NCBI GenBank assembly: GCA_026390695.1
Contig: JAPLFL010000118.1
Span: 62,001-126,000 of the forward strand
DNA: 64,000 bases
Reading direction: 5' to 3'
DNA from: Candidatus Kapaibacterium sp.
GTDB lineage: Bacteria; Bacteroidota; Ignavibacteria; Kapaibacteriales; UBA2268
The translations under genes and the position numbers were made by a program. Under the pieces are notes generated by a model. That model saw nothing but the letters and a program-made list of their open reading frames with translations. It did no database searches and was not told where the DNA came from. Of this stretch, positions 8,130 to 22,203 are shown piece after piece. How positions within the stretch are numbered: position 1 is the stretch's first letter; each line of letters begins with the position of its first letter.

Positions 8130-8691
8130 TTCTTCAACCTTAGTAGAAAAAATAATGCACCTAACACAACAACCTTATTACCTTATTAAAACCTGCCATG
8201 AAAGTATAGTTCAATAATTTACATACACATTTTGTATTTACAACAATGCATCGCGAACCCAGAATATTTGAGGAGAATCGCGAAAGAATCGAAAAATATA
8301 TTACAGGAATTGTAAATAATATTGATTGCAAATTATATGCAATCTATGCCAATCCTGAGCATGTTCATTTTTTGATCTCACGAGCTGCAAATATTGATGA
8401 AGAAAGTTTGGCAAATAAAATTGCTGAGAGTTCATCAAAATTTATAAATGAAAACAGGCTTTGCGGGAATAATTTTCAATGACAACTTTCCTATTCTGCC
8501 TTTTCGGTTTCAAAAGCAGATGTGAATAAAGTATGTAAATATATATTAAATCAGCCGGAACATCACAAAAAACAAACATTTATGGAGGAATATGAGGCAT
8601 TCATCAAGTTTTATAACGATACAATCAAAAATAAATAAGCTAATAAGGTTGGGGGCTGGGTAGCGGGACTTTTTCTACTAAGGTTGAAGAA
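8130..8691. mobile_element. Inverted-repeat-bounded RAYT-type element (inactive)
   Basis: A 22-bp perfect inverted repeat, TTCTTCAACCTTAGTAG (8130-8151 in full) and its complement (8670-8691), bounds the element. A second inner inverted repeat, 8170-8187 against 8634-8651, matches at 17 of 18 positions. The transposase pseudogene fills the interior. True IS200/IS605 elements lack terminal inverted repeats, whereas REP-associated tyrosine transposases are characteristically flanked by REP palindromes in opposite orientation, so the latter reading is favoured. Confidence 0.75.
8198..8638 (+). pseudogene. REP-associated / IS200-like Y1 transposase, two in-frame stops
   Basis: The frame from the ATG at 8198 to the TAA at 8636-8638 is about 146 codons, a normal length for this family. 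It contains NNLHTHFVFTTMHREPRI at the N terminus, HVHFLIS (the HUH metal-binding motif), and YSAFSVSKADVNKVCKYILN with QPEHHKKQTFMEEY at the C terminus. TAG at 8207-8209 (codon 4) and TGA at 8480-8482 (codon 95) interrupt it. The TGA stands where relatives have Trp in an F-x-W-Q-x-G-Y motif, so a TGG to TGA change is likely. Apart from these two stops the frame is intact, so inactivation looks recent. The enzyme would cut and rejoin single-stranded REP hairpins. Confidence 0.85.
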
Positions 8692-8761: not shown

Positions 8762-8856
8762 TCCTCTTTCATCCTTACTTTTTTTATTATTATGGTCGAG
8801 AAAATTGGATAAATAGAAAATAAAAGCTTAGAAAGATAGTACAAAGAGGCAGAAAG
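8762..8856 (+). repeat. Diverged direct repeat, right copy
   Basis: This is the counterpart of 7943-8037, running from TCCTCTTTCATCCTTAC through TTATGGTCGAGAAAATT to AAAGCTTAGAAAGATA. It runs into the 21-bp array. Confidence 0.7.
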
Positions 8857-9035
8857 ATAGTTCAAAGAGTCAGAAAGATAGTTCAAAGAGTCAGAAAGAT
8901 AGTACAAAGAGTCAGAAAGATAGTTCAAAGAGTCAGAAAGATAGTTCAAAGAGTCAGAAAGATAGTTCAAAGAGGCAGAAAGATAGTTCAAAGAGTCAGA
9001 AAGAATATTCAAAGAGGTAGAAAGATAGTTTTTTG
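8826..9035. repeat. 21-bp tandem array, 10 copies
   Basis: Ten head-to-tail units of exactly 21 bp (consensus begins AGTCAGAAAGATAG and ends CAAAG); the first, ninth and tenth are degenerate and the inner seven are almost identical. Because 21 is a multiple of three, the minus strand stays open and would encode a seven-residue repeat, but there is no ribosome-binding site or non-repeat domain, so I do not call a gene. Confidence 0.9.
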
Positions 9036-9154
9036 ACAATAAGATCGGGTTTTTTAATATTTAATATATTATTTTTATAGTCTTAATTCATTTATTTAAT
9101 AATAATTTAAGAATTATTACAATGGCAACTTAATCTTATACAAGAAATTACAAC

Positions 9155-9469
9155 ATGTCGGACGCTAATTTGTGTATGTTTACGTCCAATCTTTTCTCAG
9201 ATATGACGCGCGATTTGACTAATTTAGCTATTTTTGGTATTACTACTACTATTATTACTAATTTAGAGACTTTTGGGAATACTTTTGAGATTTTTCCTTC
9301 GGATGAAATGCTTCAGGGCGATGTAATGATTGCTACGGCGACGAAGAATGAGAAATCTACGGCTTTGAAAGAGATTATTCCTGCTATGGCTTTTCGTGTG
9401 GAGATTAAATGGGGCACTAATTCGGGTCAATATTCGCGTCTGGGGATTCCTGTATGCGAGCTTGTGTAA
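9155..9469 (+). pseudogene. Truncated gene of an uncharacterised family, 3' end supplied by a repeat
   Basis: 104 codons with an ATG at 9155 but no clear ribosome-binding site. The protein is helical and acidic with no signal peptide; residues 49-93 (PSDEMLQGDVMIATATKN, then KWGTNSGQYSRL) recall an uncharacterised protein family that I remember from related environmental bacteria, in which a KYGTNS-x-x-Y-R-x-F-G motif is followed by more than 50 further residues. Here the frame enters repeat DNA at about 9442: GGGGATTCCTGTATGCG matches 9535-9551 of the neighbouring palindromic element almost exactly, and the last eight residues plus the stop come from it. I read it as a gene fragment cut by repeat insertion. 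Confidence 0.55.
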
Positions 9470-13730: not shown

Positions 13731-13754
13731 GTCTTTTTTTTAACAATAAGAACT

Positions 13755-14057
13755 TATCAATGGCCCTCTTAGAAAATCTCCCGTGCCCATCATTTGCAAA
13801 CATGAGATTTTTATTCATCAATTCTACCTTCTACTTTTCTACTTACCAATGGCCCTCTTAGAAAATCTCCCGTGCCCATCATTTGCAAACATGAGATTTT
13901 TATTCATCAATTCTACCTTCTACTTTTCTACTTACCAATGCCCCTCTTAGAAAATTTCCCCTGCCCATCATTTGCAAACATGAGATTTTTATTCATCAAT
14001 TCTACCTTCTACTTTTCTACCTTCTACTTTTCTACCTTCTACTCTTCTACCTTCTAT
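13755..14057. repeat. Three 89-bp tandem units followed by a 15-bp micro-repeat
   Basis: Units begin at 13761, 13850 and 13939 with TGGCCCTCTTAGAAAA (TGCCCC in the third), an exact 89-base period with only a handful of differences. The third unit runs into four tandem copies of a 15-bp TTCTACCTTCTACTT motif from 14000. Confidence 0.9.
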
Positions 14058-18907: not shown

Positions 18908-18978
18908 GGAGATTTATATAAGTTCATTATGCATTTAATATTTCAATTGCATTAAAACTTATTGAAAAATCTGGGTTA
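18908..18978 (+). repeat. 65-70 bp dispersed element, copy 2
   Basis: GGAGATTTATATAAGTTCAT is followed by TTTAATATTTCAATTGCAT and ends GAAAAATCTGGGTT. It is clearly related to 14071-14140 and to the complement of 22130-22203. Confidence 0.75.
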
Positions 18979-19284
18979 AAGCGTATTGAAACAATTCCTT
19001 TAAACTAACACCTTCCCTAACCCTTCCTCAAGGAAGGGAATTTTGGAAAATGGTTTATTTGTCTATGTGGATGCAAATATTCATAATACTTTCTATAAAA
19101 GAATTACTCCCTGTTAAAAGAAGCATTATTTGTAAGAAATAGTCGTAGAAATATTAACAAACGAATTGCCAATTTTAAAACTCCTGATCATTAATATTTA
19201 ATAAATATTTTCAAATTAATATTTATTTGCTATTTATTCATAAAAAATTCGTAATTTAGGTATAGCTAAATAGAGAATCTTAAA

Positions 19285-21315: not shown

Positions 21316-21365
21316 GAAGTAGAAATTAACTTCGTTAACTAAAAAGTCAATGACAATAATTCCTA

Positions 21366-21509
21366 ATTCATTAAGGAAATGATATTAAAATTCATTAAGG
21401 AAATGATATTAAAATTCATTAAGGAAATGATATTAAAATTCATTAAGAAAATGATATTAAAATTCATTAAGGAAATGATATTAAAATTCATTAAGGAAAT
21501 GATATTAAA
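21366..21509. repeat. 24-bp tandem array, 6 copies
   Basis: Six head-to-tail copies of a 24-base unit beginning ATTCATTAAGGAAATG. Only unit 4 differs, by one base (AAGAAAATG). This near-identity indicates recent expansion. Confidence 0.95.
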
Positions 21510-21604
21510 TAGTATTATAATTCATTTGTATTATGCCTTTGTAATCATCAGAACTGTTCTTGTAAACATCAGCTATGATTACATAATCTTTTTTTGCAAC
21601 ATCA

Positions 21605-21898
21605 TAAATATCGGTTAAAGCAGTGTAAGCTTCTGATATTTCTCAATAATCGTCCGTTAAAGTGTCGTAAGATTCCGTTGCAGTTCCGTAATCGTCCGTT
21701 AAAGTGCCGTAAGATTCCGTTGCAGTTCCGTAAACGTCTGTTAAGGTGTCGTAAGGTTCCGTTACAGTTCCGTAATCGTCCGTTAAGGTGTCGTAAGGTT
21801 CCGTTGCAGTTCCGTAAACGTCTGTTAAGGTGTCGTAAGGTTCCGTAGCAGTTCCGTAAACGTCCGTTAAGGTGTCGTAAGGTTCCGTTGCAGTTCCG
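21605..21898 (+). repeat. 42-bp tandem array (two alternating 21-bp half-units), 7 copies
   Basis: Seven units of exactly 42 bp, the first degenerate. Each is an A half (TAATCGTCCGTTAAAGTG plus TCG) and a B half (TAAGATTCCGTTGCAGTT plus CCG), both 21 bp and distantly related to each other. Variation is mostly C/T and A/G transitions shared between neighbouring units. Confidence 0.95.
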
Positions 21899-21904
21899 TA
21901 AGAC

Positions 21905-22093
21905 TACGAAATAGCAACGGACTCATACGAAATAGCAACGGACTCATACGAAATAGCAACGGACGCATACGAAACAGCAACGGACTCATACGAAATAGCA
22001 ACGGACGCATACGAAACAGCAACGGACTCATACGAAAGTGCAACGAACGCATACGAAAATGCAACGAACGCATACGAAAGTATAATGGACTCT
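21905..22093 (-). repeat. 21-bp tandem array, 9 copies, inverted relative to its neighbour
   Basis: Nine units of exactly 21 bp beginning TACGAAATAGCAACGG. The reverse complement of a unit matches the B half-unit of the adjacent array at about 16 of 21 positions, including TCCGTTGC and CGTA. The arrays meet head to head at 21899-21904. Confidence 0.95.
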
Positions 22094-22129
22094 TATAGAA
22101 ATATTATGAATGTAAACAGAAGTGTATTT

Positions 22130-22203
22130 AACCCAGATATTTCATTAAGATTTAACGTAATTGAAATATTATATGCAAATAAGGAACTTTCTTAAATCTC
22201 CCA
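22130..22203 (-). repeat. 65-70 bp dispersed element, copy 3 (reverse orientation)
   Basis: Read on the minus strand it runs GGGAGATTTAAGAAAGTTCC, TTTGCATATAATATTTCAA and ATGAAATATCTGGGTT, matching 14071-14140 and 18908-18978. It overlaps the left arm of the palindrome at 22194. Confidence 0.75.

Follow-up and report, generated by a model that had tools for sequence, protein, structure and literature searches.

Positions 21605-22093 of the window (the whole stretch of DNA that was analysed, 64,000 nt from an assembly of 4.63 Mb in 129 contigs) contain two minisatellites facing each other. The question raised by this locus is what such an opposed pair of arrays may represent, and whether it stands alone in its genome.

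Layout of the opposed arrays

TRF detects both arrays where the original prediction placed them: a left array with 6.1 copies of a 42-bp unit (21647-21901) and a right array with 8.3 copies of a 21-bp unit (21905-22079), meeting at a junction at 21901-21904. The 42-bp unit consists of two 21-bp half-units, A and B, and the basic period is 21 bp in both arms. The left arm (21523-21900, minus strand) is made up of eighteen 21-bp units that read TAC... on that strand; the inner 12 (21649-21900) are regular and paired as 42-bp A/B units, and the outer six are degenerate. The turn between the arms (21901-21904) is 4 nt long, AGAC on the plus strand, and lies within the tip CGTA-AGAC-TACG (21897-21908). 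It is followed by the right arm (21905-22135, plus strand), with 11 units of consensus TACGAAATAGCAACGGACTCA, of which the first eight or nine are regular and the last two degenerate. The region had been described as an inverted repeat of 490 bp; the inverted layout stands, but not the extent, as degenerate units prolong both arms when read in 21-bp phase, such that the arms reach about 21523-22135 and decay outward. The right-arm unit had been expected to match the inverted B half-unit at about 16 of 21 positions; the inverted match is real, although alignment gives 15/21 (shuffled-unit P = 0.0005). The corresponding values are 13/21 for reverse-complemented A (P = 0.011) and 8/21 for B on the same strand, and the units therefore align better than shuffled controls. 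The 489 bases fold mostly as one stepped hairpin on either strand (-176 kcal/mol for plus and -196 kcal/mol for minus; ViennaRNA), so the potential for the giant stepped hairpin initially suggested is genuine. A chimeric fold-back arising during assembly would give identical arms, whereas those of the window differ in both sequence and higher-order period, and comparable junctions exist at other loci; both points argue against an artefact.

The genes on either side of the arrays (21523-22135) are convergent and unrelated. A CRISPR array was rejected as an identity for this locus, the units being head-to-tail without spacers, and only a tRNA matched Rfam anywhere in the window. Targets in trans were also rejected: 18-mers from the window units, searched with up to three mismatches in about 1 Mb, occurred no more often than their shuffled counterparts, apart from hits in other fold-back arrays and at a few stray sites. 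Two further repeats were observed in the window: a distinct 24-bp array of six copies (AATTCATTAAGGAAATGATATTAA; 21365-21509), between the left arm and a DUF255/thioredoxin-like gene, and an 89-bp tandem repeat of three copies followed by 15-bp repeats (13752-14056).

Fold-back relatives and a family of associated genes

A DNA search of the source genome retrieved two more head-to-head arrays, C25 and C81 (E values of 2e-9 and 5e-5), and a search with translated units, left out of the rate estimates for its bias towards its own query, retrieved many 21-bp arrays, several of them as minus/plus pairs. A four-nucleotide turn (N4) occurs at the same unit position in C25, C111, C121, C110, C27, C21, C23, C61 and the window, the turn of C81 being N9, unlike those of the other nine. 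The similar opposed arrays that the original prediction proposed to look for are, thus, present (about ten fold-back arrays in this genome), and the window locus, with its opposed arms, N4 turn at the shared position and arms matched within the locus, is no singleton. Pairing between the arms of one locus was 0.74, against 0.55 for permuted arms; 2 of 720 arm pairings among six lineages reached 0.74, with fold-back axes placed by eye and lineages grouped by our own judgement. An automatic search for inverted axes yielded other axes at some loci, because the arrays are periodic, as well as one artefact from masked sequence. The arms are matched locus by locus, which could be due to RNA pairing or to DNA exchange between arms. 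Mismatches on the sense strand of fold-back arms include 86 G-U and 59 A-C; this excess may stem from transcription-linked mutation and is not proof of pairing. Several fold-back relatives have in common an outer flank that contains boxA (see below).

Both C25 and C81 lie directly 5' of homologous genes, members of a family with about 35 representatives in the source genome and detectable in 23 of 395 sampled Bacteroidota genomes. The family protein has a helical domain (AlphaFold2 mean pLDDT of 92.6 for the domain alone), followed in the source genome by a C-terminal FnIII domain; the members from Chryseobacterium are about 230 aa long. No confident match to the fold of the helical domain was found in the PDB or among viral structures, and the family proteins had no match in PADLOC. 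Weak matches to NCBIfam PQLLE were obtained for 21 of 33 helical domains (best E value 4.6e-8; 21.5 bits for L044), below the curated cut-off of 80 bits, and the family genes are probably distant relatives of PQLLE. Of 33 members, 32 have an acidic helical domain (pI 4.5-5.3), making binding of the array by the product of its own gene less likely.

The gene and its array are the only part common to nearly all the loci compared. Loci were selected through the gene, irrespective of any array, and scored within 1 kb by a single TRF criterion (a period that is a multiple of 21, or a period of 20 or 22 with more than four copies). An array was found upstream of 103 of 112 genes and downstream of 18, the downstream side offering slightly less sequence and five genes at contig edges being set aside. 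No P value is attached to this comparison, because paralogues and related species are not independent. Upstream and downstream counts were, respectively, 27/27 and 8 for family-1 genes of the source genome, 7/7 and 0 for its gene fragments, 3/3 and 2 for type-3 genes, 9/11 and 0 for type-2 genes, 9/10 and 1 for G006 and G014 together, and 48/54 and 7 for other Bacteroidota. In a lag profile obtained independently of TRF, the upstream self-match was 0.477 at lag 21 and 0.310 at the adjacent lags of 20 and 22, compared with 0.292 downstream. In a phylum-wide draw with a lower TRF threshold, which included some loci from genomes already sampled and other homologues near the detection limit, a 21- or 42-bp array was present at 19 of 28 loci, 12 of which had 3.5 copies or more. 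The units are nearly homogeneous within an array and specific to the locus between arrays, with a period of 21 bp throughout. The fold-back arrays are a subset of this larger class, which is widespread across the Bacteroidota.

Could slippage or recombination alone generate such arrays? According to this neutral explanation, intergenic 21-bp minisatellites would simply accumulate and the window pair would be one array that became partly inverted. TRF was applied to 864 kb, consisting of the window plus 40 non-randomly chosen stretches from large contigs. Of the 54 arrays with 2.8 or more copies, 38 have a period of 21, 42 or 63 bp, and about half of these 38 adjoin no recognized family gene, as would be expected under neutrality; the window copy, which has neither gene nor boxA, also fits. 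The explanation nevertheless accounts neither for 103/112 upstream against 18/112 downstream, beside one family in many genera, nor for the sense-only boxA and recurring N4 turn, and we consider it quite unlikely.

Several other observations were made around these genes. A second family (DYIPKPDxNFQDWLxNF..., with an FnIII-like C-terminus) has 16 matches in the source genome and an upstream array in 9 of 11 scored copies (L220:15752-16390, L219 with its array at 18959-19160, and L027:3459-4094). In L107 and L110 (Chryseobacterium), a small ORF (about 36 codons; MMIV/MMIY...NNPAL...LKKR*) terminates immediately ahead of the array, some 300-450 bases 5' of the gene start. The window itself has a one-arm 21-bp array of the same class (8811-9040, plus strand), followed at a distance of about 90 bp by a family gene that is broken: it is represented by an N-terminal fragment (9123-9469, plus strand), which has an in-frame TAA close to the start. 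Beside them lies a gene for a Y1 (IS200-like) transposase (8247-8640), which contains an in-frame TGA. This gene is one of only four Y1 matches in a genome with dozens of arrays, and a RAYT/REP mobile element was rejected on that count. Phage and plasmid origins were likewise rejected, relatives being found neither in viral contigs (queried with one peptide pattern) nor in plasmids (one Chryseobacterium query).

boxA, coding tests and a proposed leader role

Words from GTTCTTTGA were the standout strand-specific 7-mers 5' of the arrays of the source genome. The same motif is present in the rrn leader and spacers of this genome and was therefore identified as boxA. A published gamma-proteobacterial consensus is GYTCTTTAANA (PMC5725501), and boxA has been described upstream of CRISPR arrays (PMC7862264). 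In the rrn operon at L241, a boxA-like GTTCTTTG was seen in the leader, in the 16S-tRNA spacer and before the 23S gene. The exact 9-mer GTTCTTTGA lies within 130 nt 5' of the array in 10 of 44 cases in the source genome and 5 of 55 in relatives, and is absent from the other 34 and 50; in the source genome, no exact copy was antisense or between array and gene, for a background of 0.0175 per kb per strand. At L045, L046 and L060, a promoter-like TAATTTTG or TATATTTG box is followed by boxA and then by the array, an order also seen in the rrn leader. Among the fold-back relatives, C121, C110, C27, C25, C81 and C61 have an exact inward boxA outside an arm, and C111 has one with a mismatch.

Translation of the arrays would provide another reason for a 21-bp unit, which would encode seven residues of the Y-x-x-x-T-D-x kind, read outward in each arm. 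The heptad frame is open in the window over 97 aa on the right and up to 149 aa on the left (minus strand), a heptad-like pattern can be read in the degenerate outer units, and both strands of the arrays have more open frames than permuted columns. Sense and antisense are, however, equally open, no bias in codon-position variability was found, 28 of 85 arrays contain indels, no consistent period-3 signal was detected except for C in arrays of the source genome, and in C25, C121, C111 and C27 the 3' arm has an in-frame TAA immediately ahead of its first heptad. A translated heptad is therefore highly improbable. As boxA is confined to the sense strand and nothing in the arrays points to coding, at least the boxA-bearing arrays, about a quarter of those in the source genome, are probably transcribed as untranslated leader RNA, judging from sequence. 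TAnnTTTG boxes between array and gene are also sense-biased (11 versus 1 in the source genome), such that the promoter of some genes may lie 3' of the array; this, and the lack of an exact boxA at most arrays, limits the leader claim to a subset. The hairpin and a protein binding from both sides had been offered as alternatives for the window. Its relatives point towards an RNA leader, given the inward-facing boxA that borders most of them and the matching of their arms within loci; the window copy itself has no boxA.

The leader reading can be extended to a mechanism. The arrays would be transcribed as long untranslated leader RNA with the aid of Nus antitermination; each 21-bp step corresponds to two turns of DNA, so copy number could change at constant helical phase, and the length of the leader would tune expression of the downstream gene. 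In one sub-lineage, the array would have folded back at one constant position in the unit, with arms that stayed matched at each locus, and the leader would adopt an extended, stepped hairpin around a 4-nt turn. Both the regulatory role and the explanation of the 21-bp step are our inference, and we assign a probability of about 0.5 to the statement as a whole, that is, a transcribed untranslated leader altered in length by 21-bp steps at constant helical phase. The same two turns of B-DNA would place successive units on one face and make bends add in phase, and a curved or protein-coated module upstream of the gene, with transcription through it incidental, would account for a fixed period with free sequence. 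The arrays are slightly more curved than column-permuted ones (mean z 0.44 ± 0.11, wedge model), but this effect is weak and does not single out 10.5 bp, as harmonics 4 and 6 reach the same height; A+T shows no 10.5-bp phasing in the arrays, and boxA acts in RNA. A purely DNA-level element thus appears unlikely.

On the leader reading, both arms of the window copy were retained, yet they decay outward, and boxA and the gene are both absent. No boxA was found within 150 nt of either array edge, with up to one mismatch allowed, and no family gene within 1 kb 3' of the array, tblastn giving no match; a synteny comparison showed no array downstream of the orthologous DUF255 gene in those flanks of relatives that were examined. 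The period, 21 bp or multiples of it, is that of the leader-array class. Because the family gene is absent and the relationship is one of units and layout alone, the window copy is most likely an orphan of the class, and probably no longer a working leader. We infer that a gene once lay downstream. In C25, C121 and C111, the regular 21-bp arm is the one on the boxA side; by analogy, minus would formerly have been the sense strand of the window copy.

Significance and comparison with known systems

Whereas sequence is the usual target of selection, what seems to be conserved here is a length, with turnover of the sequence, in many genera and beside one gene family. If transcribed, the leaders would represent another use of boxA beyond rRNA and CRISPR arrays. 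The existence of cultured members in Chryseobacterium, Epilithonimonas and Sunxiuqinia makes the class testable. We tentatively propose, at somewhat under even odds, a Bacteroidota class of transcribed leader arrays in which a 21-bp period is kept with sequence free, dedicated to one uncharacterized family and giving a long hairpin RNA in one lineage. The novelty concerns this class rather than the window orphan alone. The class is apparently undescribed: no description was found in the open-access literature searched, and none is known.

Promoter and 5'-UTR VNTRs (contingency loci) are tandem repeats beside a start codon, with a copy number that varies by locus. Known examples differ in period and occur at single loci, whereas here one period extends across a family and a phylum with the sequence free. 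BrickBuilt, a minisatellite within a MITE of Porphyromonas gingivalis with reported promoter activity, also forms intergenic tandem arrays near genes, at about 19 sites of a Bacteroidota genome (PMC4596501). Its 23-nt unit is, however, common to all copies in one species, with a leader and a tail bearing small inverted-repeat ends, whereas the unit here is 21 bp, varies by locus, occurs in many genera and is tied to one gene family; a BrickBuilt-type MITE was rejected given the 21-bp unit, against a conserved 23 nt, and the little sequence shared by arrays of the source genome. Non-coding transcripts led by boxA, namely rRNA leaders and CRISPR arrays (as cited in PMC7862264 and PMC5725501), resemble these arrays in that boxA opens an extended untranslated region that is partly repetitive. 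The arrays considered here differ from those boxA-led transcripts in being free of spacers, cas genes and rRNA, and in having a locus-specific unit followed by a protein-coding gene.
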